Positions 15,683-61,400 of a stretch of DNA of 64,000 nt are shown here, piece after piece (position 1 is the first letter of the stretch; each line of letters starts with the position of its first letter). Source of the stretch: Methylotuvimicrobium sp. KM2. GTDB taxonomy: Bacteria > Pseudomonadota > Gammaproteobacteria > Methylococcales > Methylomonadaceae. The notes under the pieces are model-generated. The model was given only the letters and a program-made list of their open reading frames with translations, did no database searches and was not told where the DNA came from. The position numbers and the translations under genes were made by a program. Location of the stretch: NCBI RefSeq assembly GCF_038051925.1, contig NZ_CP150634.1, forward strand, positions 496,001-560,000. Reading direction: 5' to 3'.

Positions 15683-15920
15683 GCGAGCACTCTTGCCAAA
15701 TTGTTAATGCCTGTTTTTCAAGCTGCCACGGTCCTCCGCTTGTCATAATACGCAAATCCCACGCCTATTATTCTAAATTCGACAAGCACTCCACGCAAAT
15801 CACGAAATACACGAAAGTAACCCTGCGGTTACATACTCCCATCTGATCGTAAAAGCGTCTCATTGTCGCCGAACACGAGTTACCGACCCCTCACAAAGCT
15901 CATAGCTACAGGGCTTTATT
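15683..15920. other. Intergenic stretch without recognisable features
   Basis: Between the DUF2956 stop and the TAT element at 15921 I see no gene, and no repeat beyond fragments such as CTCATAGCTACAGGG, which recalls sequence near 37570. Base composition is close to the window mean. Frames here are short and lack ribosome sites. Confidence 0.6.
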
Positions 15921-16095
15921 TATACCCTTCGCACTTCAAATTTCGGCAGTGCCTTAGAAGGCACCGGGGTGCTCGGCCCCTCACCTAACGCTAGGTGAGG
16001 GGCCAGCATGGAGCTGGCATAGAGCCTACAGGGATGTATTCACGGCGTCCTTTGACGGGCACCCCGGTGCCGAATTTTGATCTCCGATAGGTATA
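15921..16095. repeat. TAT element carrying the CORE motif (reverse orientation)
   Basis: 175 bp from TATACCC to GGTATA, almost the exact reverse complement of 13630-13803. The core lies at 16023-16050 on the minus strand. It includes the palindrome CCCCTCACCTAACGCTAGGTGAGGGG and the dyad CCAGCATGGAGCTGG. Arms CACTTCAAATTTCGGCAGTG and GGTGCCGAATTTTGATC are complementary. Confidence 0.88.
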
Positions 16096-39314: not shown

Positions 39315-39330
39315 TAAATCGCTAAGCCTG

Positions 39331-39591
39331 TAGGATGGGTAGCAGCGCAGCGGAAACCCATCATGGTCGCCCGCAAACGGCAAAAAAACATTACGCGCCC
39401 TGATTGATAAACCCCGTTTGGCCGCGAAAATCAACAGGTCATTTCACACAGTTTAGGCCGTAGGATGGGTAGCAGCGCAGCGGAAACCCATCATGAGCAC
39501 CCGCAAACGGCAGGAAAACATCACGCGTCCGGATTGATAAGCCCCGTTTGGCCGCGAAAATCAATAGGTCATTTCACACAGTTTAGGTGTG
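39331..39591. repeat. Tandem duplication of a 131-bp REP-containing unit
   Basis: Two adjacent units (about 39331-39461 and 39462-39591). Each starts with a REP (GTAGGATGGGTAGCAGCGCA form), continues with CCGCAAACGGCA, TTGATAA-CCCCGTTTGGCCGC and ends with GGTCATTTCACACAGTTTAGG. They differ at a few positions only. The same REP-CCGCAAACGGCA-TTGATAA order recurs in the BIME arrays at 40890 and 59514. Confidence 0.85.
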
Positions 39592-40889: not shown

Positions 40890-42060
40890 CTTGTAGGATG
40901 GGTAGTAGCGAAGCGGAAACCCATCATGGGATAACGCAAGCGATGGATTTCGGCTAACGCCGCTACCCGCTACCCGCCACGGACGGCTTTTTCTTAAACC
41001 GCCGGAGCGCACGACAGTCATGTCGCCCGCGCTCCGGATTCGATACTCCCCGATAGCAATGCGTTTTTTTCGCGAGAGCGCATCGCTATCGGTCGGAAAC
41101 AAAATCCATGCGATGCCGAGCGGTAACGATGGGTTTCGGCTATCGCCTCTACCCATCCTACGCAAGAGCCGCCATCCGAAAAGGACTGCGCTGTAGGATG
41201 GATAGCAGCGAAGCGGAAACCCATCATGAACACCCCGCAAACGGCAGGAAAACATTGCGGGCGGGTTTATAAAACCCGCCCGGCGGGCTCCGCGGTGTGG
41301 GGACGCTGGAGCGTCCCCGGCAGTGCTCCCACGCTGGAGCGTGGGAGCCATTTGAAGTTTCGCCAAGACTTTAGTTGTTGTTTGGTGTTGATGTTGAGGT
41401 TGCATCTCTCTTGGGGTGGCAACACCCCTTTTTTTGAATTTATCGTTCCCACGCTCCGGTCATCGTTCCCACGCTCCAGCGTGGGAATGCAGCCCACACC
41501 GCTCCGCGGTGCGAGGACGCCGGAGCGTCCTCGGCTGGGCTCCCACGCCGGAGCGTGGGAGCCATTCGAAACCCCTTTGCCGGCGGGGTAAAAAACGATG
41601 GGTTTCGGCTATCGCCTCTACCCATCCTAAGCAAGCCCCCCGTTGTAGGATGGGTAGCAGCGAAGCGGAAACCCATCATGGGCGCCCGCAAACGGCAGGA
41701 AAACATTGCGGGCGGGTTTATAAAACCCGCCCGGCGGGCTCCGCGGTGTGGGGACGCTGGAGCGTCCCCGGCAGTGCTCCCACGCTCCGGTCATCGTTCC
41801 CACGCTCCAGCGTGGGAATGCAGCCCACACCGCTCCGCGGTGCGAGGACGCCGGAGCGTCCTCGGCTGGGCTCCCACGCCGGAGCGTGGGAGCCATTCGA
41901 AACCCCTTTGCCGGCGGGGTAAAAAACGATGGGTTTCGGCTTCCGCCTCTACCCATCCTACGCAAGCCCCCCGTTGTAGGATGGGTAGCAGCGTAGCGGA
42001 AACCCATCATGGGCGCCCGCAAACGGCAGGGAAACGTTTCATCGTTCTCACGCTTCGGCG
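40890..42060. repeat. Long REP/BIME and multi-hairpin block
   Basis: The 1.27-kb gap after the first prepilin holds no convincing gene. REP elements occur at about 40893, 41193, 41645 and 41976 (plus) and 41130, 41606 and 41930 (minus). Between them are GCGGGCGGGTTTATAAAACCCGCCCG and clusters of CCCACGCTCCAGCGTGGG, CCGCTCCGCGGTGCGAGG and GGACGCCGGAGCGTCC hairpins. A segment starting at ~41460 is repeated at ~41791 (offset about 331 bp) with near identity, so part of the block is a tandem duplication. Long frames crossing it (up to 200 codons) translate repeats in both copies and are not genes. Confidence 0.85.
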
Positions 42061-45646: not shown

Positions 45647-45830
45647 TTATCGTTCCCACGCTCCGGCGTGGGAACGCAGCCCGGGACGCTCCAGCGTTCC
45701 GGTAGTGCAGTAGGATGGGTAGGAGCGCAGCGGAAACCCATCAAGGTGAGCGGCAAGCGGTAGGGGAAAGGTTGCGGTCGGGTTTATAAAACCCGACCGG
45801 CGGGAAGGAGCGTGTGAAGCATAGTTTTAG
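45647..45830. repeat. Multi-hairpin cluster and REP before the ATPase gene
   Basis: CGTTCCCACGCTCCGGCGTGGGAACG (about 45652) and a smaller CGCTCCAGCG dyad are followed by a REP at 45708-45742 and GGTCGGGTTTATAAAACCCGACC. These are the same building blocks as in 40890-42060. No gene is seen. Confidence 0.75.
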
Positions 45831-47676: not shown

Positions 47677-47727
47677 TGCGCGGCGACATTCCAGCAATTC
47701 CCAGTTTGAGCAGTTTCGCCGATTTTA

Positions 47728-47828
47728 GGGTGTGGGGTATGCCTGTCGAGGAACGCCGTAAACCCATCCATGGGGGCTTGGCGGCAGCTCCCTGCTGCCG
47801 ACATCCTCGCCAAGCATACCCCACACCC
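47728..47828. repeat. CORE hairpin, GGGGTATGCC arms
   Basis: GGGTGTGGGGTATGCCTGTC-GAGG (47728-47751) pairs with CCTCGCCAAGCATACCCCAC-ACCC (47805-47828). The core is diverged (GGAACGCCGTAAACCCATCC then ATGGGGGCT); the inner hairpin GGCAGCTCCCTGCTGCC shows a compensating pair change relative to GGCGGCTCCCTGCCGCC elsewhere. It is the same subgroup as 28366-28461. Confidence 0.88.
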
Positions 47829-47880
47829 TTTTTGATCCCCAAATTGGGAACTGCTGGCGACATTCATCGGTGATTGCATA

Positions 47881-49550: not shown

Positions 49551-49845
49551 TGCTTGGTGTTTAAAAGTATGCGAAGTAACGCTCATGAAGATATGGCCAT
49601 CGCCCCGGCAAATGAAAGTGTGCGGCGTGGGGAAGGGTGCGGTCACTCGCCCGACAGGACGCCGTGAATACGTCCCTGTAGGCTCGACGGCGGCTTTCCC
49701 TGCCGCCGACGCCTGCCGGTCGAGCAACCGCACCCTCCTCGGAACCGGCATTTCTGTCGTTCCCACGCTCCAGCGTGGGAACGATAAAGTTCATCTGGTT
49801 GAATTCAATCAGTCTTTGATTTTGCAGTGATGCCCGGTGTTTAGG
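49508..49845. repeat. Direct duplication flanking a CORE hairpin
   Basis: GTTCATCTGGTTGAATTCAA and the following ~30 bases (49510-49563, the 3' end of the mshK-like gene with its stop) recur at 49792-49845 with three or four differences. Between them is a CORE hairpin: GGGTGCGGTCACTCGCCCGA-CAGG (49635-49658) with CCTGCCGGTCGAGCAACCGC-ACCC (49712-49735), core 49657-49684. A GTTCCCACGCTCCAGCGTGGGAAC hairpin follows at ~49759. The second copy is a gene remnant in a leader position before the secretin. Confidence 0.85.
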
Positions 49846-49863: not shown

Positions 49864-52221
49864 ATGCTCAGGATTTTTCGTTTTTGCGTGTTATTGGCCG
49901 GTTTGTGGGCCGGGCTTTGCTTTCCTACTTCGGCGCATGCGCTAAGGAGTCCGGAGCAGAAAATCGCGCAATTGGATTTTCGCGATATCGCCGTCGGCGA
50001 TGCGCTGAAAGTCCTGTCGGATCAATCCGGCTTGAATATCATCGCCTCGCAGGAAGCGGCGCAGATTCACATCACGATGTATTTGCAAGACATTACGCCG
50101 ATGGAGGTGATCGACGCGATCTCCAAAACCTACAATTTGTGGTATCAGCACGACGGCAGCGCCAATATCATTCGTATTTACACGATCAAGGAATACCGGA
50201 TGGAGCAGGTGGAGTTTAAAAGGGAAGAAACCGAAATCTTTACGATGAAGAATGCTAAGAACGCGCTGGACTTGGCCGAAACGATACAGAATTTGTTCAT
50301 GGAGCGGGTGCGCTTGAGCTACGGGCGTAACCAAAACGAACTGATGATGGATTTGAGTCAGCGTTTTCAACGCTTCAATATGTTGGATAGCCAGACGACG
50401 CTGGGCTCCGGCGGGTCGCGCGGCGGCGGTGGTGGCGGTGGCGGCGGTATGGGTGGCGGCATGGGAGGAATGGGCGGCGGCATGGGCGGCAGTATGGGAG
50501 GTATGGGCGGCAGTATGGGCGGTATGGGCGGTATGGGCAGCCAACAAAACATGCGCGCCAATCGTCAAGTCGAAATGGACGAGCAAATGCGCCTCCAGAC
50601 CGAGTTGATGCGCAAATATGCGGACGACCCGCAAGCCTTTCTGGCGGGCGATGCCGAACGCGGTCGTACGCTGCTGAGAGAAAGCGTGCAAATGCAGGCG
50701 CCGATCTATGTCGGCGTCATCAAGCACCAGAACCGCGTTTTGGTTCGCACGCGCGATTTCGATGCGATGCAGGAAATACGGCAATTGTACAAAACACTGG
50801 ATACCGAGAGTTCCATGCTGTTGATGGAAGTCAAGATCCTGTCTCTGGATTTGTCGGACGGTTACGACTCTTTGTTCGATTTCAAGATTCGTCAGGGCGA
50901 TGCCAATATTTCGACCTTGAATGCGACCAGCGCGCTCAATAGCGCCATCAATACCGCGGCCGCCGTGTTCGATCCGAGTTTGCTGGCGACCGTGATCAGC
51001 GAGAAGTTCGAGATGCGTTTGCAGTTATTGGAAAATGAAGGCCGCGTGACCGAGTTGGCGACGCCGATGTTGATGACCACCAATCAGGAGGTTAGCCGGG
51101 TGTTCGTCGGCGAGGAACGCCCTATCGTCAGCGGTTATTCGGCTTCCAGCACCTCGAATAATGTTACCGCGCCCGGTTCGTCGACGGTGGTTCAGCCGAT
51201 TCTGGTGCCGGAAACCGATACCCGCGCGATCGGTACGACTTTATTGTTGACGCCTAATATCAATGCGGACCGGACCGTGACCATTCAATTGTTGGTCGAG
51301 CAATCGGCGATCGCCAATGGTCAAGCGACGATTCCTGTACAGGTTGCCGATGCTTTGGTCGAGGCGCGTATCGATTTGGTCCAGGAACGGACTTTCAGCG
51401 GCACGGTTGTCGCCAATGACGGTTCGTCCATCGCGGTCGGCGGCTTGATCGAGGAAGGCGCGCGCAGCCGGGAAAACAAGGTGCCTATCTTGGGCGATTT
51501 GCCCCTATTGGGTTTTTTCTTTCGCGAAGAGGCGCAGGCGCGCGAGCGGCGCGAATTGGTCATCGTCATCAAGCCGCATATCATCGGCACGCCGGCCGAA
51601 GCGCAAGACGTGAGCCGAGCCATGGCCGAGAAAAACAGCGTGCATCCGAGCGCGCCGGAGGCCGGTAATTTGAATGTCTACAGCAATCCGGACAGCACTC
51701 ATAAAGGCTATGTGCTCGAACAGCCCTATAAGCAATACAGGAAACAAGACGCGACCGATAAGTATCGGGGACGCGGGGATTCCAGAGAGTTTCCCGGAAG
51801 ATCCGGCGCTTCGCGCTCGGAATCGACTTCGGCGCAGCAAACTTATATGGACTTGACGCGCTATGCGGCCGAATCGATTCGGGTATCGCCGGAACAGCGC
51901 CAACCCCATGCCAAAATTCAACCGGCCGCGTTGCAACAGCAAGCGCCGCTGGCATTGTTGCCGAACGAGTCGATTCGGATATTGCCGTTTGAAAGTTGGC
52001 GGCAAGGCGGGGTTTATGTCACGGCGCTGGAAGTACGCAATGCATCGCCGCAACCGGTCGCGATCGATCAAAGGCAGCTCAAGGGGCGCTGGCTGGCGGC
52101 GACTTTGGAAGGCGATCATCTTGCCGCGCAAGGAGACTTCGGCGATTCGACCTATTTGTATCTGATCTCCGCCGAGCCGTTCGACGATATCATCGCCCAT
52201 TTGCCGGGAAGCGGAGGTTAG
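49864..52221 (+). CDS. Secretin (MshL/PilQ/GspD type) with extra C-terminal domain
   Basis: 785 residues from the ATG at 49864; a GTG at 49837 falls in the duplicated remnant. Signal peptide (about 1-26). An STN/N0-like domain (about 35-110, LDFRDIAVGDALKVLSDQSG, ITPMEVIDAISKTYNLWY), a Gly/Met low-complexity linker (about 180-230), an N-domain, then the secretin barrel (about 310-590) ending in VPILGDLPLLGFFFR and ELVIVIKPHII. The last ~75 residues (SIRILPFESWRQGGVYVTAL, LKGRWLAATLEGDHLA, DSTYLYLISAEPF) form a further domain that resembles the DUF3438/TIGR03749 proteins of integrative conjugative elements. It forms the outer-membrane pore of this system. Confidence 0.9.
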   Translation: MLRIFRFCVLLAGLWAGLCFPTSAHALRSPEQKIAQLDFRDIAVGDALKVLSDQSGLNIIASQEAAQIHITMYLQDITPMEVIDAISKTYNLWYQHDGSANIIRIYTIKEYRMEQVEFKREETEIFTMKNAKNALDLAETIQNLFMERVRLSYGRNQNELMMDLSQRFQRFNMLDSQTTLGSGGSRGGGGGGGGGMGGGMGGMGGGMGGSMGGMGGSMGGMGGMGSQQNMRANRQVEMDEQMRLQTELMRKYADDPQAFLAGDAERGRTLLRESVQMQAPIYVGVIKHQNRVLVRTRDFDAMQEIRQLYKTLDTESSMLLMEVKILSLDLSDGYDSLFDFKIRQGDANISTLNATSALNSAINTAAAVFDPSLLATVISEKFEMRLQLLENEGRVTELATPMLMTTNQEVSRVFVGEERPIVSGYSASSTSNNVTAPGSSTVVQPILVPETDTRAIGTTLLLTPNINADRTVTIQLLVEQSAIANGQATIPVQVADALVEARIDLVQERTFSGTVVANDGSSIAVGGLIEEGARSRENKVPILGDLPLLGFFFREEAQARERRELVIVIKPHIIGTPAEAQDVSRAMAEKNSVHPSAPEAGNLNVYSNPDSTHKGYVLEQPYKQYRKQDATDKYRGRGDSREFPGRSGASRSESTSAQQTYMDLTRYAAESIRVSPEQRQPHAKIQPAALQQQAPLALLPNESIRILPFESWRQGGVYVTALEVRNASPQPVAIDQRQLKGRWLAATLEGDHLAAQGDFGDSTYLYLISAEPFDDIIAHLPGSGG

Positions 52222-52224
52222 GAA

Positions 52225-52392
52225 TATGCACAAAATAACTTCGCGAAACAGTAAGCTTTGTGGAGGTTCGGTAACTCGCTTGACAGGCCGCCGTGAATAC
52301 ATCCTTGTAGGCTTGACGGCGTCTGTCCCTGCCGCCGACACCTGTCAAGCGAGCCACCGAACCCCCTTCTTGCATTTGAAGAAGTTATTTAA
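52225..52392. repeat. CORE hairpin with outer arms, before the beta-barrel gene
   Basis: Inner arms GGTTCGGTAACTCGCTTGAC-AGG (52265-52287) and CCTGTCAAGCGAGCCACCGA-ACC (52341-52363) pair at 21 of 23 positions; the core is at 52286-52313 and the inner hairpin is ACGGCG...TGCCGCCG. Outside these, GCACAAAATAACTTCG (~52231) and GAAGAAGTTATTTAATGC (~52377) are also complementary, so the element is at least ~165 bp. An open frame runs through it into the beta-barrel gene. Confidence 0.85.
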
Positions 52393-52471
52393 TGCTCGCT
52401 CTTTAATCGTAACAGGACCGGACGACATTCGACGGAGCCTTTCGGAAAAGCGGTGTCGGTTTCTTGCGCTA

Positions 52472-53476
52472 ATGGGATTGGTTTCCGTTTCGGCTTGGGG
52501 GCAAGTGCCCGAGCTTAACATGCATGTCTTCGAGACGCCGCCCGCGCCGATTCCGGTAACGAATATAACGGCCGGACTCGATCAAGATGAAATGACGTCC
52601 TTTCAAATGGTCATTTTCGATCCGGAGGCCGAAGCCGAAACCTTGGACGAATATCCCCGGCATCGGCAACGGCGGCAGGTGGTCGACGATTTTAGCGTTC
52701 TGGTCGCCGGCGATATCGGTTATCAGCGAGAAAGCCTGGCGTGGAGCGTCGCTTCGGCGGATGGTGCGGTCGACCCGATTACGCGTGTCGAATGGCAAGA
52801 CCTCGATACCTGGAAACTAAAAGGCCGCATGGATATCGTTTCGCCGAGCGGCATTACGCTGCGCGGCGATGCCGGTTACGCCTGGGTTTTGAACGGCAGC
52901 GGGCAGGAAGCCGGCTTCGACGGCGCACCGAATTCCCAGAATGCCGGTGACGGCTACAGTTGGGACGTCTCGGTCGGACTAGGCTACCGCCTACAGGTCG
53001 GCGACACCGAATCGGTCGCCATCGCCGCGACGCCTTTGGCGGGTTATGCCTGGCGGCGGCAACGTTATGTAATGCAAGGCGCGGAAGAAAACCGTTATGC
53101 CGCGAGTTGGCAAGGGCCTTGGGTCGGTCTGGATACGGCTTTGACCTGGCTCGACTATCACCAGTTGTTTGTTTCCGCGCAGTATCATTGGGCCGATTAC
53201 GAGGCGTCCGGCGACTGGCGGCAGTTGGCCGATGTGCGTCATCCCGATAGTTTCGAGCATGAAGCCGATGCGACCGGTTATCTGGGGTCGTTGGGTTACC
53301 GTTATATGCGTCCCGAGGGCTGGGGCTTGAGTCTGAGTTTCGATTATCAAAAATGGCAGGGCGATCCAGGGCGGGAGCGGTTTAATTTTGCCAACGGCGA
53401 GGTCGTGGAGTCGCGATTCAAAGATCTGTCGCGCGAGTCGGTCGGCGTCAATTTAGGCATCAATTTACAATTTTGA
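52472..53476 (+). CDS. Predicted outer-membrane beta-barrel, omptin-like
   Basis: 334 residues from the ATG at 52472, with a short signal-like start (MGLVSVSAWGQ). The frame stays open back to 52226, but that part translates the CORE repeat, so the original N-terminus may have been altered. The body alternates strands with many Trp/Tyr and ends in INLQF, the C-terminal Phe of BAM substrates. TRVEWQDLDTWKLKGRMDI, LAGYAWRRQRYVMQ, PWVGLDTALTWLDYHQLFVS and DSFEHEADATGYLGSLGYRY resemble the strand order of omptin proteases, and a D/E-H cluster is near the expected loop. Activity is not certain. It lies between the secretin and the subtilase. Confidence 0.62.
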   Translation: MGLVSVSAWGQVPELNMHVFETPPAPIPVTNITAGLDQDEMTSFQMVIFDPEAEAETLDEYPRHRQRRQVVDDFSVLVAGDIGYQRESLAWSVASADGAVDPITRVEWQDLDTWKLKGRMDIVSPSGITLRGDAGYAWVLNGSGQEAGFDGAPNSQNAGDGYSWDVSVGLGYRLQVGDTESVAIAATPLAGYAWRRQRYVMQGAEENRYAASWQGPWVGLDTALTWLDYHQLFVSAQYHWADYEASGDWRQLADVRHPDSFEHEADATGYLGSLGYRYMRPEGWGLSLSFDYQKWQGDPGRERFNFANGEVVESRFKDLSRESVGVNLGINLQF

Positions 53477-53483
53477 ACGCGTC

Positions 53484-55349
53484 TGCTGGGAGCGATCCGG
53501 TTCCTTGTGGGAGCGACGCCTTCGTCGCGATTTCGAAGTCGGGAACGTTAAGTAACAGTCAAGGGCATCGAAGCCACATTGGCTAAGATGGCAAGACTTC
53601 GCGCGGGGCGAATGTTACAAACCCGCCCGCGCGAAGTCTATCCCTAGCGCTTGCGTAGGATGGGTAGAGGCGGAAGCCGAACCCCATCGTTTCACTTAAA
53701 TTTTTAATGGTTCCCACGCTCTGCGTGGGAACCCAGGCGGGGACGCTCCAGCGTCCCCGAACCGCAGAGCGGTTCGGGCTGCATTCCCACGCCGGAGCGT
53801 GGGAACGATGGAATGCTGGGAGCGATCCGGCTCCTTGTGGGAGCGACGCCTTCGTCGCGATTTCGAAGTCGGGAACGTTAAGTAACAGTCAAGGGCATCG
53901 AAGTCACATTGGCTAAGATGGCAAGACTCCGCGCGGGGCGAATGTTACAAACTCGCCCGCGCGAAGTATATCCCTAGCGCTTGCGTAGGATGGGTAGAGG
54001 CGGAAGCCGAAACCCATCGTTTCACTTAAATGTTTAATGGTTCCCACGCTCCGCGTGGGAACCCAGGCGGGGACGCTCCAGCGTCCCCGAACCGCAGAGC
54101 GGTTCGGGCTGCATTCCCACGCCGGAGCGTGGGAACGATGGAATGCTGGGAGCGATCCGGCACCCTGTGGGAGCGACGCCTTCGTCGCGATTTCGAAGTC
54201 GGGAACGTTAAGTAACAGTCAAGGGCATCGAAGTCACATTGGCTAAGATGGCAAGAACCCCGCGGGGCGAATGTTACAAACCCGCCCGCGCGAAGTATAT
54301 CCCTAGCGCTTGCGTAGGATGGGTAGAGGCGGAAGCCGAACCCCATCGTTTCACTTAAATTTTTAATGGTTCCCACACTCTGCGTGGGAACCCAGGCGGG
54401 GACGCTCCAGCGTCCCCGAACCGCAGAGCGGTTCGGGCTGCATTCCCACGCCGGAGCGTGGGAACGATGGAATGCTGGGAGCGATCCGGCTCCTTGTGGG
54501 AGCGACGCCTTCGTCGCGATTTCGAAGTCGGGAACGTTAAGTAACAGTCAAGGGCATCGAAGTCACATTGGCTAAGATGGCAAGACTCCGCGCGGGGCGA
54601 ATGTTACAAACTCGCCCGCGCGAAGTATATCCCTAGCGCTTGCGTAGGATGGGTAGAGGCGGAAGCCGAAACCCATCGTTTCACTTAAATGTTTAATGGT
54701 TCCCACGCTCTGCGTGGGAACCCAGGCGGGGACGCTCCAGCGTCCCCGAACCGCAGAGCGGTTCGGGCTGCATTCCCACGCCGGAGCGTGGGAACGATGG
54801 AATGCTGGGAGCGATCCGGCTCCTTGTGGGAGCGACGCCTTCGTCGCGATTTCGAAGTCGGGAACGTTAAGTAACAGTCAAGGGCATCGAAGTCACATTG
54901 GCTAAGATGGCAAGACTCCGCGCGGGGCGAATGTTACAAACTCGCCCGCGCGAAGTATATCCCTAGCGCTTGCGTAGGATGGGTAGAGGCGGAAGCCGAA
55001 ACCCATCGTTTCACTTAAATGTTTAATGGTTCCCACGCTCCGCGTGGGAACCCAGGCGGGGACGCTCCAGCGTCCCCGAACCGCAGAGCGGTTCGGGCTG
55101 CATTCCCACGCCGGAGCGTGGGAACGATGGAATGCTGGGAGCGATCCGGCACCCTGTGGGAGCGACGCCTTCGTCGCGATTTCGAAGTCGGGAACGTTAA
55201 GTAACAGTCAAGGGCATCGAAGTCACATTGGCTAAGATGGCAAGAACCCCGCGGGGCGAATGTTACAAACCCGCCCGCGCGAAGTATATCCCTAGCGCTT
55301 GCGTAGGATGGGTAGAGGCGGAAGCCGAAACCCATCGTTTCACTTAAAT
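53484..55349. repeat. Tandem array of a ~330-bp composite repeat unit (5.7 copies)
   Basis: Units begin TGCTGGGAGCGATCCGG at 53484, 53814, 54144, 54473, 54803 and 55133; the last is cut after ~216 bp by the subtilase gene. Each contains, in order: GTGGGAGCGACGCCTTCGTC, a family A piece (GTTAAGTAACAGTCAAGGGC, CACATTGGCTAAGATGG), a CGCGGGGCGAATGTTACAAA...CGCCCGCGCG hairpin, one REP (AGAGGCGGAAGCC form), and the four-hairpin cluster GTTCCCACGCT / GGGGACGCTCCAGCGTCCCC / GAACCGCAGAGCGGTTC / TTCCCACGCCGGAGCGTGGGAA. Units 2-3 and 5-6 share the same diagnostic variants, so a two-unit block was copied. No gene is present. Confidence 0.95.
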
Positions 55350-55353
55350 TTGA

Positions 55354-58038
55354 ATGCTTATGATGAATCGATACCGTTTAGTGTTTCTATTGATGGTCTG
55401 CTGCGGCATGTCGGCACAGGCCGCGGACATACGTTTGAGCAGTCATCTGCAACGCTTGCAAGCCGAATTTCGTCAGCACAGCGCCGCCGGCAAACCCGTT
55501 CATAGCTTCGTTTCCACCGATCCCACGCTGTCGGTGATCGATCATCGCTATGTCGTGCTCGATATTTCGGCAGCCGATTCGGCACAGGCCGAAACGCTGC
55601 TCGAACACTTGCAAGCACTCGGCATGACGCACGCGGTACGCTATAAACACCTCGTTTCCGGCGCGTTTCCGATCGAAAGCTTGCATGAGCTCGAAGGATT
55701 GTCCGGCGTCAATTGGGTGCAAGCATCGAGCGCGGCGCGCCATGCGCTGGGTCCGCCCGGCGGCTTGGCCTACAACGCGGCCGATGCGGCGATGTTTACC
55801 GATGTCGTGCGCAAACGCTATAACGTCGACGGCAGCGGCGTGACGATCGGCGTCTTGTCCGACAGCTACAACTGTTTGGACGGCGCGGCGGACGACGTGC
55901 TCAGCGGCGATCTGCCGGACGATGTCGTCGTGTTGCAGGACTATCCGTTTTGCGAAGAGGGCTTGAGCGACGAAGGCCGGGCGATGATGCAATTGGTTTA
56001 CGACATCGCTCCGGGGGCGAAGCAGATGTTTTATACCGCATGGATGGGCGCGGCCGGCTTTGCCCAAGGCATTCAGCGTTTGGCCGATGCCGGCGCCGAT
56101 ATCATCGTCGACGACATCGCCTACCTGACCATGCCGATGTTCCAAGACGGCCCGATCGCGCAATCGGTCGACGAAGTCAAGGCGCGCGGCGTCGCTTATT
56201 TTTCTTCGGCGGGGAACATGGCTAGGCTGTCTTACGAAAACGATTTCGTGTCGGGCCGCGAGCCTTTGTCGTCCGATACTGCGCACGATTTCGGCAAGGC
56301 GGCGGGGCAGGCTTCCGATTTTTATCAGAAAATCACAATACCTCAAAACACGGGCGTGCGCATCGTGTTGCAATGGGACGACCCGGCTGAAATTGCCGGC
56401 GGAGCAGGCGCGAAAACCGATCTGGATTTGTTTTTATTGGATCACAGCAAACGGCGCATCCTATCCAGCAGCCAGGACAGCAATATCGGACACAATCCGG
56501 TCGAGATTCTTGGCATCGGGCATTCGATGGAAACGACCGAGTTTTATTTATATATCAGCCATCGGGCCGGACCCGCGCCTAAGCATGTCAAATATGTGCT
56601 GTTCGGCCCGCCCGCGCCTTGGCCGGATGCGAAAGAAGACGAATTGGTACAGCTTAGCGTGCAATTTAACAACGGCGCTCCGACTTTGGTCATGCCCGAT
56701 GGGCAGGTGATGCAGCGCGGCAAGGCCGTTGTCGTTTTGGAACGTGAAATTGTCGAAATCAATACGCAAGAGAGACCTTTATTTCTAGGCAGCGACGGCA
56801 ATGTTCTAATCGAATACAAAGACGAGTTTCATCGCATCGGTACGCCCTATTTGCCTATTTGGTTCATTCCAGAAGGCTTCAAGGCCGCTTTGATCGGCGG
56901 CGAACTGATTCTTTACCGCGATATCGAAGATGTCGTGCCCTTGACTATCGACCACTACCCCACCCACAGCGGCACCGTTTACGGTCATGCCAACGCGGCC
57001 GGCGCGATGGCGGTCGGCGCGATTCCCTACGAGGAAACGCCGTGGTTCGGCACGCCGATTACAGACAGCAAGATCCAGTATTTTTCATCGGCGGGCGGCA
57101 CGCCGATTTATTTCAATCGGGACGGGATCAGGCACAGTCAGGCAGAACAGCGCCTTAAACCCGATATCGTCGCGCCCGATAATAGCGACACGACATTTTT
57201 CGGCAATGACAACGACGGCAGCGGCTTTCCCAATTTTACCGGCACCTCGGCGGCCGCTCCGAACGCCGCCGCCTTGGCCGGCTTATTGAAGCAGGCGTTT
57301 CCGTTTTTAAGCCCCGATCAAGTTCATCTGGCGATGCGTAAAGGCAGCCAGCCGCTGCACGATCCCGCAGGCAATGTTTCACAACCGGCCCCGGCCAATC
57401 CGGACTGTGAATTCGCGGACGACTTCAATTGGGGGACCGGTTGCGGTCTGATAAAGGCGGACCGGATTTTTAGCGAAGCCGGTCATGCGGCCGATTCCGT
57501 GTATTTAACCCTAAAGGCAATCGAGCCTCTCGTCATTGCCGGCCGCGAATTCGACTATCGCTTCGAAGTGCACAATTTCAGCGGACAAACCTTGACCAAT
57601 TTACAGGTTAGCGCCAAGCGTTTGCCGAAATTCCTCCGCTATCGCTACGTCGACGGCTGCCCGAACTTCAACAGAAAGAAAGTCGAATGCAAATTCCCCG
57701 ACTTGCCTTCCGGCGGCACGGCGGCTTTTAGCATCGGCGTGATGCCGAGGAACAATCCGACACGGCGTTTACTGCTCGAAGCGGAAGTATCGACCGACGC
57801 GCCGGTCGATTTAAGCGGCGCGCAAGCCGTGCTGGATATCGAACTACTGGCGGTGCCCGGCGATATCAACGGCGACGGCTGCGTGGACAAAGCCGATTGG
57901 CGCCGCCTGTTCAGCGCCTATCGACGAGGCGATCATAAACCGGCCTACGACTTGGACGGCGACGGCCTGGTCGGACAAAGCGATTTGCAGATATTGAAAA
58001 CGCTCTACTCCAGACCGGGAGGTAGACGATGCCGTTGA
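55354..58038 (+). CDS. Exported S8-like (subtilase) peptidase with atypical Asp-Glu-Ser centre and dockerin-like C-terminus
   Basis: 894 residues; signal peptide (about 1-23). The S8 fold is recognisable: D170 in GVLSDSYNC, N288 in FFSSAGN, and S632 in GTSAAAPNAAALAGL. Where subtilases have H-G-T-H, this protein has SDEGRAMMQLVYDIAPGA with E207, the alignment position of the catalytic Glu of sedolisins. A ~340-residue insertion (including a beta-sandwich with DLDLFLLDHSKRRIL) separates N288 from S632. A C-terminal DUF11-like beta domain (about 705-825) is followed by two calcium-loop repeats, DINGDGCVDKADW and DLDGDGLVGQSDL (about 837-885), a dockerin-type module. It ends 10 bp inside the next prepilin gene, which suggests coupling and a joint role. 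Confidence 0.85.
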   Translation: MLMMNRYRLVFLLMVCCGMSAQAADIRLSSHLQRLQAEFRQHSAAGKPVHSFVSTDPTLSVIDHRYVVLDISAADSAQAETLLEHLQALGMTHAVRYKHLVSGAFPIESLHELEGLSGVNWVQASSAARHALGPPGGLAYNAADAAMFTDVVRKRYNVDGSGVTIGVLSDSYNCLDGAADDVLSGDLPDDVVVLQDYPFCEEGLSDEGRAMMQLVYDIAPGAKQMFYTAWMGAAGFAQGIQRLADAGADIIVDDIAYLTMPMFQDGPIAQSVDEVKARGVAYFSSAGNMARLSYENDFVSGREPLSSDTAHDFGKAAGQASDFYQKITIPQNTGVRIVLQWDDPAEIAGGAGAKTDLDLFLLDHSKRRILSSSQDSNIGHNPVEILGIGHSMETTEFYLYISHRAGPAPKHVKYVLFGPPAPWPDAKEDELVQLSVQFNNGAPTLVMPDGQVMQRGKAVVVLEREIVEINTQERPLFLGSDGNVLIEYKDEFHRIGTPYLPIWFIPEGFKAALIGGELILYRDIEDVVPLTIDHYPTHSGTVYGHANAAGAMAVGAIPYEETPWFGTPITDSKIQYFSSAGGTPIYFNRDGIRHSQAEQRLKPDIVAPDNSDTTFFGNDNDGSGFPNFTGTSAAAPNAAALAGLLKQAFPFLSPDQVHLAMRKGSQPLHDPAGNVSQPAPANPDCEFADDFNWGTGCGLIKADRIFSEAGHAADSVYLTLKAIEPLVIAGREFDYRFEVHNFSGQTLTNLQVSAKRLPKFLRYRYVDGCPNFNRKKVECKFPDLPSGGTAAFSIGVMPRNNPTRRLLLEAEVSTDAPVDLSGAQAVLDIELLAVPGDINGDGCVDKADWRRLFSAYRRGDHKPAYDLDGDGLVGQSDLQILKTLYSRPGGRRCR

Positions 58039-59513: not shown

Positions 59514-60436
59514 CGCAGCCCTGTAGGATGGGTAGCAGCGAAGCGGAAACCCATCACGGGTACCCGCAATCGGCAAAAAAACATTACGTCCGGATTGATA
59601 ACACCTGTCCGGCGGAAGAACCGGCGGCGAGGGGAAAAACGATGGGTTTCGGCTTCCGCCTCTACCCATCCTACGCAAGAGCGGCCTTGTAGGATGGGTA
59701 GCAGCGAAGCGGAAACCCATCACGGGTACCCGCAAACGGCAAAAAAACATTGCGACCGGATTGATAACACCCGTTCGGCGGAAGAACCGGCGGCGAGGCG
59801 AAAAACGATGGGTTTCGGCTTCCGCCTCTACCCATCCTACGCAAGAGCCACCTTGTAGGATGGGTAGCAGCGAAGCGGAAACCCATCATGGGTTCCCACA
59901 AACGGCAAAAAAACATTACGTCCGGATTGATAACACCCGTCCGGCAGGAAAACCGGCGGCAAGGTGAAAAACGATGGGTTTCGGCTTTCGCCTCTACCCA
60001 TCCTACGCAAGAGCGACCCTGTAGGATGGGTAGCAGCGAAGCGGAAACCCATCACGGGTTCCCGCAAGCGGCAAAAAAACATTGCGACCGGATTGATAAC
60101 ACCCGTCCGGCAGGAAAACCGGCGGCGGCGAAAAACGATGGGTTTCGGCTTCCGCCTCTACCCATCCTACGCAAGAGCGGCCTTGTAGGATGGGTAGCAG
60201 CGAAGCGGAAACCCATCATGGGTACCCGCAATCGGCAAAAAAACATTGCGACCGGATTGATAACACCCGTCCGGCGGAAGAACCTGCGGCGAGGCGAAAA
60301 ACGATGGGTTTCGGCTTCCGCCTCTACCCATCCTATGCAAGAGCGGCCTTGTAGGATGGGTAGAAGCGAAGCGGAAACCCATCATGGGTACCCGCAAACG
60401 GTAGGCAAGCCGTCCGGTGGCGGTGTCTCGTTCGAT
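59514..60436. repeat. BIME array upstream of the RAYT gene
   Basis: About six units of ~166 bp, each with a forward REP (AGCAGCGAAGCGG loop; at about 59523, 59691, 59855, 60021, 60187 and 60353), the linker CCCGCAA-CGGCAAAAAAACATT, TTGATAACACCCGTCCGGCGG, and a reverse REP of the AGAGGCGGAAGCC form (GATGGGTTTCGGCTTCCGCC...). Forward and reverse REPs face each other, as in BIME-2 type arrays. The array ends ~70 bp before the transposase gene. Long frames over it are repeat translations. Confidence 0.93.
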
Positions 60437-60457
60437 CGATGAGTGTTGGAGATGAAT

Positions 60458-60988
60458 ATGGCTAATTATCGGCGTTATCGGGTTAAAGGCGGAACGTATT
60501 TTTTTACGGTGGCTATATACAATCGGCGACAGGCGTTATTGGTCGATTATATCGATGCGCTACGGGACGCTTTTGCAGAAGTCAAACGTGCGCATCCGTT
60601 CCATATCGATGCCATTGTGATCTTGCCGGAGCATATGCATTGTATTTGGACCTTGCCGGAGGGCGACGATGCTTTTTCGATGCGTTGGCGGCAAATCAAG
60701 TCTGCGTTTACCGAGCAGTTGCCGGATGTCGAGCCGCGTTCGGCAAGTCGAAAACGGAAGGGTGAACGGGGTATTTGGCATCGGCGATTTTGGGATCATG
60801 TCATTCGGGACGATAACGATTTTGCTCGGCATGTGGATTACATTCATTTTAATCCGGTTAAGCATGGTTGGGTCAAGCAAGTAGCGGATTGGCCTTATTC
60901 GACATTTTTTCGTTATGTCGAACGAGGGGTTTATCCCTTGTCTTGGGGGAGCGATTACAGCGATGACCTAGAGGTGGCGGGAGAGTGA
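60458..60988 (+). CDS. REP-associated tyrosine transposase (RAYT, Y1/HUH family)
   Basis: 176 residues from the ATG at 60458 with GGAG six bases upstream; in-frame GTG 60443 and ATG 60452 are weaker. MANYRRYRVKGGTYFFTVAI is the typical RAYT start. The metal-binding HUH pair is in LPEHMHCIWTLPEGD (H-x-H), and the catalytic Tyr is in HVDYIHFNPVKHGW. WHRRFWDHVIRDD is conserved. RAYTs are single-copy domesticated relatives of IS200/IS605 transposases that nick and move REP sequences. It is flanked on both sides by the REP class with GTAG feet that dominates this window, so this is probably its substrate. Confidence 0.95.
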   Translation: MANYRRYRVKGGTYFFTVAIYNRRQALLVDYIDALRDAFAEVKRAHPFHIDAIVILPEHMHCIWTLPEGDDAFSMRWRQIKSAFTEQLPDVEPRSASRKRKGERGIWHRRFWDHVIRDDNDFARHVDYIHFNPVKHGWVKQVADWPYSTFFRYVERGVYPLSWGSDYSDDLEVAGE

Positions 60989-61400
60989 CGGTAGAAACGA
61001 TGGGTTTCGGCTTCTGCCTCTACCCATCCTGCAGCGCTTCGAAATCGCGACGAAGGCGTCGCTCCCACAGAGGGCTGCGGACGCTCTGTGGGAGCGATCC
61101 CCTGATCGCGATCTCGAGGCCGAGAGTGTTAAGTAGCAATAAATGGCATCGAGATCTCATTGGCTAAGATAGCAAGATGGTAATAAACAACTTATGTATA
61201 ACGATGAGCGCAGAGCGTGGGAACCATTAAAACGTTTCGGACGGGTTTATGATCTCTATCCGGCAAGATATCCGTCGGCGAGGCGAAAAACGATGGGTTT
61301 CGGCTTCCGCCTCTACCCATCCTTCGCAAGAACGACCTTGTAGGATGGGTAGCAGCGAAGCGGAAACCCATCATGGGCTTCCGCAAACGGCAGGAGACCC
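60989..61400. repeat. REPs and family A piece downstream of the RAYT gene
   Basis: A reverse REP at 60997-61031 (GATGGGTTTCGGCTTCTGCC form) is followed by a family A piece (61035-61200: TCTGTGGGAGCGATCCCCTG, GTGTTAAGTAGCAATAAATG). 61285-61322 is a reverse REP and 61339-61373 a forward REP, with the same CCGCAAACGGCAGG linker. No gene is seen. Confidence 0.85.

Follow-up and report, generated by a model that had tools for sequence, protein, structure and literature searches.

The gap between an outer-membrane protein (OMP) gene and a subtilase gene of Methylotuvimicrobium sp. KM2 is occupied over its full length by a tandem array of a 330-bp composite repeat. We consider it probable that this is a composite, BIME-like array of REPs which was grown and homogenised by unequal homologous recombination, its REPs having probably been seeded by a REP-associated tyrosine transposase (RAYT).

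A composite tandem array fills the gap between two genes

Tandem Repeats Finder, run on the window (the whole stretch of 64,000 nucleotides that was analysed), reported an array at 53484-55356 with a period of 330, 5.7 copies and 97% matches, in agreement with the initial annotation of a 330-bp composite tandem array between two genes. The array starts 7 bp past the stop codon of the OMP gene, and 2 bp separate its end from the first ATG of the subtilase gene. Cutting the array at TGCTGGGAG to set the unit borders gave units of 330, 330, 329, 330 and 330 bp, followed by a sixth that stops at about 219 bp.

52226..53476, + strand: OMP gene, left flank (Pom-like, PF17251)
53484..53813, + strand: unit 1, type a, 330 bp
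53814..54143, + strand: unit 2, type b, 330 bp, identical to unit 5
54144..54472, + strand: unit 3, 329 bp, 5' part like unit 6 (type c), 3' part nearest unit 1
54473..54802, + strand: unit 4, type b, one difference
54803..55132, + strand: unit 5, type b
55133..55351, + strand: unit 6, type c, truncated, without the 105-bp palindrome
55354..58038, + strand: subtilase gene, right flank (PF00082, weak dockerin match)

The array is non-coding: there is no open reading frame of 120 aa or more inside it and the 329-bp unit shifts the frame, which ruled out a coding repeat. Two tRNA-Arg calls made by ARAGORN (53712-53803 and 54701-54792) were judged spurious, since only two of five near-identical units score and the calls lie within the palindrome described below as M4; Rfam gave no match supporting them. 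With regard to transposition of the whole unit as a MITE, M4 is palindromic, and no clean target duplication could be made out by eye at the level of the unit.

The beginning of the OMP gene is itself repetitive. Its first ~60 codons, including the start codon, coincide with a dispersed repeat of ~188 bp (52218-52406) that has some 40 copies in the genome at 77-90% identity, and matches to the protein elsewhere often cover residues 1-60 only. The start of this gene may have been supplied by the dispersed repeat.

The unit combines REPs, a private hairpin and a palindrome

Each full unit can be divided into four modules, which are listed here for unit 2 together with the last GTAG-type REP of the array.

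53820..53927, + strand: M1, half REPIN made of a TTGTGGGAGCGACGCCTTCGTCGCGA-type REP and spacer, from a dispersed family
53925..53973, + strand: M2, CGCGGGG hairpin, GC-rich
53985..54018, + strand: M3, GTAG-type REP GTAGGATGGGTAGAGGCGGAAGCCGAAACCCATC
54035..54141, no strand assigned: M4, 105-bp palindrome, dispersed in the genome
55303..55336, + strand: GTAG REP of unit 6, with 17 nt between its end and the subtilase ATG, at a position conserved in three species

M1 occupies unit positions 6-113, where the core TTGTGGGAGCGACGCCTTCGTCGCGA REP is followed by a spacer of ~60 bp, and it recurs at many other genomic sites. M4 can be folded either as four short hairpins or as one long outer stem enclosing two inner hairpins, and is much more stable than its shuffles (z -10.7); the whole unit, taken as RNA, also folds better than shuffled sequence (z -6.7). 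The unit had been described as a mixture of members of dispersed families, and this held for three components, namely the GGGAG REP, the GTAG REP and the four-hairpin cluster; the CGCGGGG hairpin, however, was confined to the array in the window and ~400 kb of sampled genome. Background rates were taken from these ~400 kb of sampled stretches and from a genome-wide pattern search; densities were not calculated from the lists of similarity matches, in which 40 out of 344 candidates had received a score.

In the units GTAGGATGGGTAGAGGCGGAAGCCGAAACCCATC has the form of a REP, with a GTAG tag followed by an imperfect palindrome of 20-40 bp. A REPIN consists of two inverted REPs around a spacer that move together, and the M1 REP lacks an inverted partner inside the unit. 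As in a BIME, several REPs and their linkers stand in tandem (5.7 units of 330 bp), but the orientation of the REPs does not alternate, the GTAG REPs of the array all being on the + strand. The array is thus BIME-like and is not classed as a BIME-2.

Unit variants point to a probable misaligned crossover

The full units of the KM2 array differ from one another at 0-2.7% of positions. Units 2 and 5 are exactly identical and unit 4 is one base off, units 3 and 6 have the CACCCTG and AACCC-CG variants in common, and unit 1 carries four private bases. The sharing of variants that had been noticed between units 2-3 and units 5-6 is therefore real, with unit 4 belonging to the unit 2/5 type as well. 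Duplication of a two-unit block, which had been proposed from it, is not the best reading: unit 3 matches unit 6 through column 140 and unit 1 at column 199, a pattern expected from a misaligned crossover, which disfavours a simple two-unit duplication. Unit 3 is probably a crossover hybrid. On the few variable sites available, the simplest history starts from a three-unit array a, b, c, in which a single misaligned crossover between c and a would have yielded a, b, c/a, b, c; the gain of one further b unit would then have produced the present array. At column 239 unit 4 has a base that is found in the units of related species, and this needs an extra step beyond the simplest crossover model.

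The same gap differs in copy number and module between species

The locus was compared using one genome per species: KM2 (G000), G002 and G004, the last representing Methylotuvimicrobium buryatense 5G, in which the OMP gene has a full-length match. Both relatives belong to Methylotuvimicrobium and carry the same subtilase gene with an array in front of it. The gap of G002 holds units of 315 and 314 bp and then a truncated unit of 166 bp, and that of G004 a single 314-bp unit followed by a truncated 166-bp unit, so that the orthologous gap contains five full units in KM2, two in G002 and one in G004. Identical copy number in related genomes, named in advance as grounds for giving up the idea of expansion, was thus not what we found. 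A truncated final unit with TTTCACTTAAATTTGAATGCTTATG is common to all three genomes. In G002 a MITE-like insert (CCTGATTAGCAAG...CTTGCTAATCAGG, bordered at each end by ATTTTGAA; L052 ~15876-16030) lies between the OMP stop codon and the array, and the subtilase gene is ~92 codons shorter, with an in-frame gap in the middle of the gene relative to 55354-58038.

The units of the three genomes also differ in composition. Between their REPs, all six KM2 units have the M1 spacer and M2, whereas every unit of G002 and G004 has, in place of both, an inverted GTAG REP that is either exact or carries a mismatch. Similarly, the units start with TGCT in KM2 and with TGTT in G002 and G004, uniformly within each genome and including the units at the edges. 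A module that is identical across the units of one genome and different between genomes indicates homogenisation, and this uniform swap is the strongest sign in these sequences of what appears to be concerted evolution. Full units differ by 2.2% inside G002 and by 3.8-5.1% between G002 and G004, and KM2 units differ from those of the relatives by 14-17% over the alignable columns, some of which belong to the swapped module; when only clearly homologous columns are counted the contrast is smaller but in the same direction. The flanking genes differ by ~4% between species.

These comparisons support the suggestion that the composite formed before it was multiplied, in that one relative has a single full unit with a truncated one and a related inverted composite occurs in another gap. 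The suggestion that the expansion is recent stands for expansion and homogenisation, the KM2 units differing by less than the flanking genes do, but not for the array itself, which is not new since three species carry it, truncated last unit included.

A RAYT gene lies at the centre of a GTAG REP hotspot

An apparent source of GTAG REPs is encoded downstream of the subtilase gene, in a region that contains further arrays.

39330..39587, no strand assigned: tandem pair of a 130-bp GTAG REP unit (Tandem Repeats Finder)
41450..42010, no strand assigned: two reverse-oriented M4+M3 composites in tandem, at 331-bp spacing
59518..60401, no strand assigned: second tandem array, 166 bp x 5.3, inverted GTAG REP pairs, directly upstream of the RAYT gene
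60351-60383, + strand: GTAG REP ~69 bp upstream of the RAYT gene
60452..60988, + strand: RAYT gene, 178 aa, Tyr130 aligned with Y115 of Escherichia coli TnpA-REP
60995..61030, - strand: GTAG REP ~10 bp downstream of the RAYT gene, inverted relative to 60351-60383

The protein encoded at 60452-60988 matches NF047646 almost from end to end (207.5 bits; cut-off 80) and the structure of E. coli TnpA-REP (PDB 4er8; E 1.3e-59), in which Y115 is the catalytic residue (PMC8266576); the catalytic tyrosine is retained. NCBIfam and the PDB detect the gene, but its score with Pfam Y1_Tnp (PF01797) falls under the cut-off and a scan with Pfam only therefore misses it.

Flanking of the gene by inverted GTAG REPs, the arrangement expected of a RAYT and its REPs, recurs in G036 and others. 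GTAG REPs lie 14-70 bp from RAYT homologues in G046, G018, G036 (two loci), G189, G014, G160, G139, G124 and G002, and the GTAG REP pattern occurs no more than 70 bp from a RAYT homologue in at least eight genomes of the family besides KM2. Strict GTAG REP matches number 39 in the KM2 genome, 88 in G002 and 59 in G004, with none for a reversed control pattern, and 29 of the 39 lie within 30 kb of the RAYT gene, where 0.47 would be expected. The hotspot is found at the same island in G002 and G004; two genomes without the island genes (G003 and G005) have 7 and 9 strict matches in the whole genome. In G004 the RAYT gene is absent from the island locus, yet hotspot and array are both present, and so current RAYT activity is not required there.

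Other gaps of the island vary between species as well. The gap at 59518-60401 has 143 bp x 2.4 in G002, against 166 bp x 5.3 in KM2, and a single inverted composite in G004, which is 94-95% identical to a full unit of the relatives over ~253 bp. In the island alignment, G002 has a 168-bp x 4.2 array at 45806 where G004 has ~130 extra bases and KM2 none, and at 49584-49611 the relatives have 398-bp arrays. In the ~400 kb sampled outside the island, REP-built arrays were found only beside a second RAYT gene at 1.59 Mb (G000:C1 ~1590.8 kb), which is flanked by the M1 core REP and adjoins tandem 208-bp REPIN arrays. A RAYT gene at 3.25 Mb (L011) was dropped as partner of the GTAG REPs, there being no REP module beside it.

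Repeats of other kinds were also seen. Those at 47692-47857 (~165 bp) and 49575-49760 (~180 bp) have many copies of 87-99% identity in all six genomes of the genus, including those without the island. At G000:C1:1596491-1599692 (L083 16491-19692), about 40 copies of a 37-bp repeat, ATTTGAATACCAGACCTTATTAAGAAGGGATTAAGAC, at ~71-bp spacing look like a CRISPR array.

The RAYT gene itself is 99.8% identical at the DNA level between KM2 and G002, compared with 94-98% for most neighbouring genes and ~72% for the next gene. This suggests that the gene was recently exchanged between species. The island as a whole is a mosaic of high and low identity in which some neighbouring genes are far more diverged, and recent recombination is therefore the likely cause of the identity of the RAYT genes.

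Probable growth by recombination and its alternatives

We infer the following course of events. GTAG REPs, which the RAYT encoded 5 kb downstream probably uses as substrates, would have gathered in one intergenic gap together with the half REPIN of the second resident RAYT and a palindromic repeat; action of RAYTs is the most likely explanation for this supply of REPs. As a result an M1-M3 segment would have come to lie on both sides of one palindrome as a direct repeat, and M. buryatense still shows this state. These direct repeats could then have undergone unequal homologous recombination, producing more units of 315-330 bp, and the same recombination would have spread the variant modules of each lineage through all of its units. 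The spread of variants to the units at both edges fits this process.

Replication slippage or template switching at long palindromes, independent of RecA, might instead have made the extra units. It would be expected to give similar arrays, as every unit contains strong palindromes, and in KM2 a short TGCT match is shared by the left flank, the junctions and the right flank. However, units as long as 330 bp and homogenisation over six units, the last one among them, suit homologous recombination better, and we regard slippage as unlikely.

It is also conceivable that the array is a regulatory device in which the number of hairpin-rich units tunes the subtilase at the level of translation, mRNA decay or read-through. 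With the whole gap taken up by the array, a promoter would not fit between the last GTAG REP and the ATG. The truncated unit at the end, along with the short stretch that joins it to the ATG, is identical in three species, and the folding of the unit is far above that of shuffles. Against this, neither a sigma-70 promoter nor an intrinsic terminator was found in the array, and other gaps of the island, unconnected to the subtilase, have expanded in other species. A role in setting subtilase expression thus seems rather doubtful and the array is probably close to neutral, although the kept position of the last REP next to the start codon could point to some function. If the array acts at all, it would do so as a structured, hairpin-rich spacer in any transcript that reads through from the OMP gene into the subtilase gene.

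Growth by the transposase itself, in which REPs cut and rejoined by the enzyme at replication forks would have yielded the extra units, was considered in view of the probably cognate RAYT with its REPs 5 kb away and of the second RAYT, flanked by tandem REPIN arrays. The repeated unit, however, comprises M2, spacer and M4 besides REPs, the exchange point in unit 3 lies somewhere within columns 140-199, and the array is present in G004 without a RAYT at the locus. The inclusion of flanking DNA that is not REP and a crossover inside the unit favour recombination over REP transposition, and make transposase-driven growth improbable. A miscounted or inflated unit number is highly improbable, even though units 2, 4 and 5 are nearly identical and the array is known here from the assembly rather than from reads, given the private or paired variants in units 1, 3 and 6, a genome in one 5.0-Mb contig and the presence of the array in three independent assemblies.

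Relation to known REP arrays

Arrays of this kind are already known, tandem REP arrays with flanking DNA having been published (PMC3116915, PMC3733652). In Pseudomonas fluorescens SBW25, REPINs and GI-GIII REPs form ordered tandem arrays, including ones in which two REP families alternate, some beside RAYTs (Bertels and Rainey 2011, PMC3116915). The KM2 array resembles these in its near-identical tandem units that include flanking sequence, in the combination of REP families (two in SBW25) in fixed order and spacing, and in the clusters adjoining RAYT genes. It differs in the longer unit (330 bp), where a private hairpin and a 105-bp palindrome accompany a GTAG REP and another RAYT's half REPIN, and in that homogenisation is seen between species at one orthologous gap. 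Large intergenic clusters of GTAG-tagged REPs, reiterated in tandem with flanking DNA, have also been described (Di Nocera 2013, PMC3733652); a word search of that text found no Methylo- genus. The KM2 array shares with them the GTAG tag and palindrome, the intergenic site and the tandem repetition with flanking DNA, but its unit is a mosaic of several families. The BIME-2 of E. coli is likewise a tandem REP mosaic in intergenic regions, also beside the rayt gene (PMC2817692, PMC8266576). Compared with it, the GTAG REPs of KM2 are unidirectional and strict alternation is absent, whereas the units of G002 and G004 have an inverted GTAG pair. The RAYT is like TnpA-REP (NF047646, PDB 4er8) in its near-full-length match, catalytic tyrosine and inverted GTAG REPs on both sides. 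Vertical inheritance has been described for RAYTs (PMC8049555), yet the DNA identity of 99.8% between KM2 and G002, together with the absence of the gene from this locus in G004, does not resemble plain vertical descent.

The locus is notable for its orthologous series (one, two and five full units), for the module swapped through all units, and for the hotspot centred on a RAYT gene. We raise, as a tentative possibility that is more doubtful than not, that the island is a REP nursery, in which the RAYT seeds GTAG REPs mostly within ~30 kb, the resulting local density leads nearby gaps to recombine into tandem arrays whose growth and homogenisation proceed independently in each species, and the RAYT gene is exchanged between species. 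Across species, the locus clearly records the concerted evolution of a repeat array in a bacterial intergenic region. By linking such arrays to a RAYT-centred REP hotspot, it would provide a site at which local spread of REPs by RAYTs may be tested, and, at the same locus, a test of whether RAYTs pass between species, contrary to the view that they are vertically inherited (PMC8049555).
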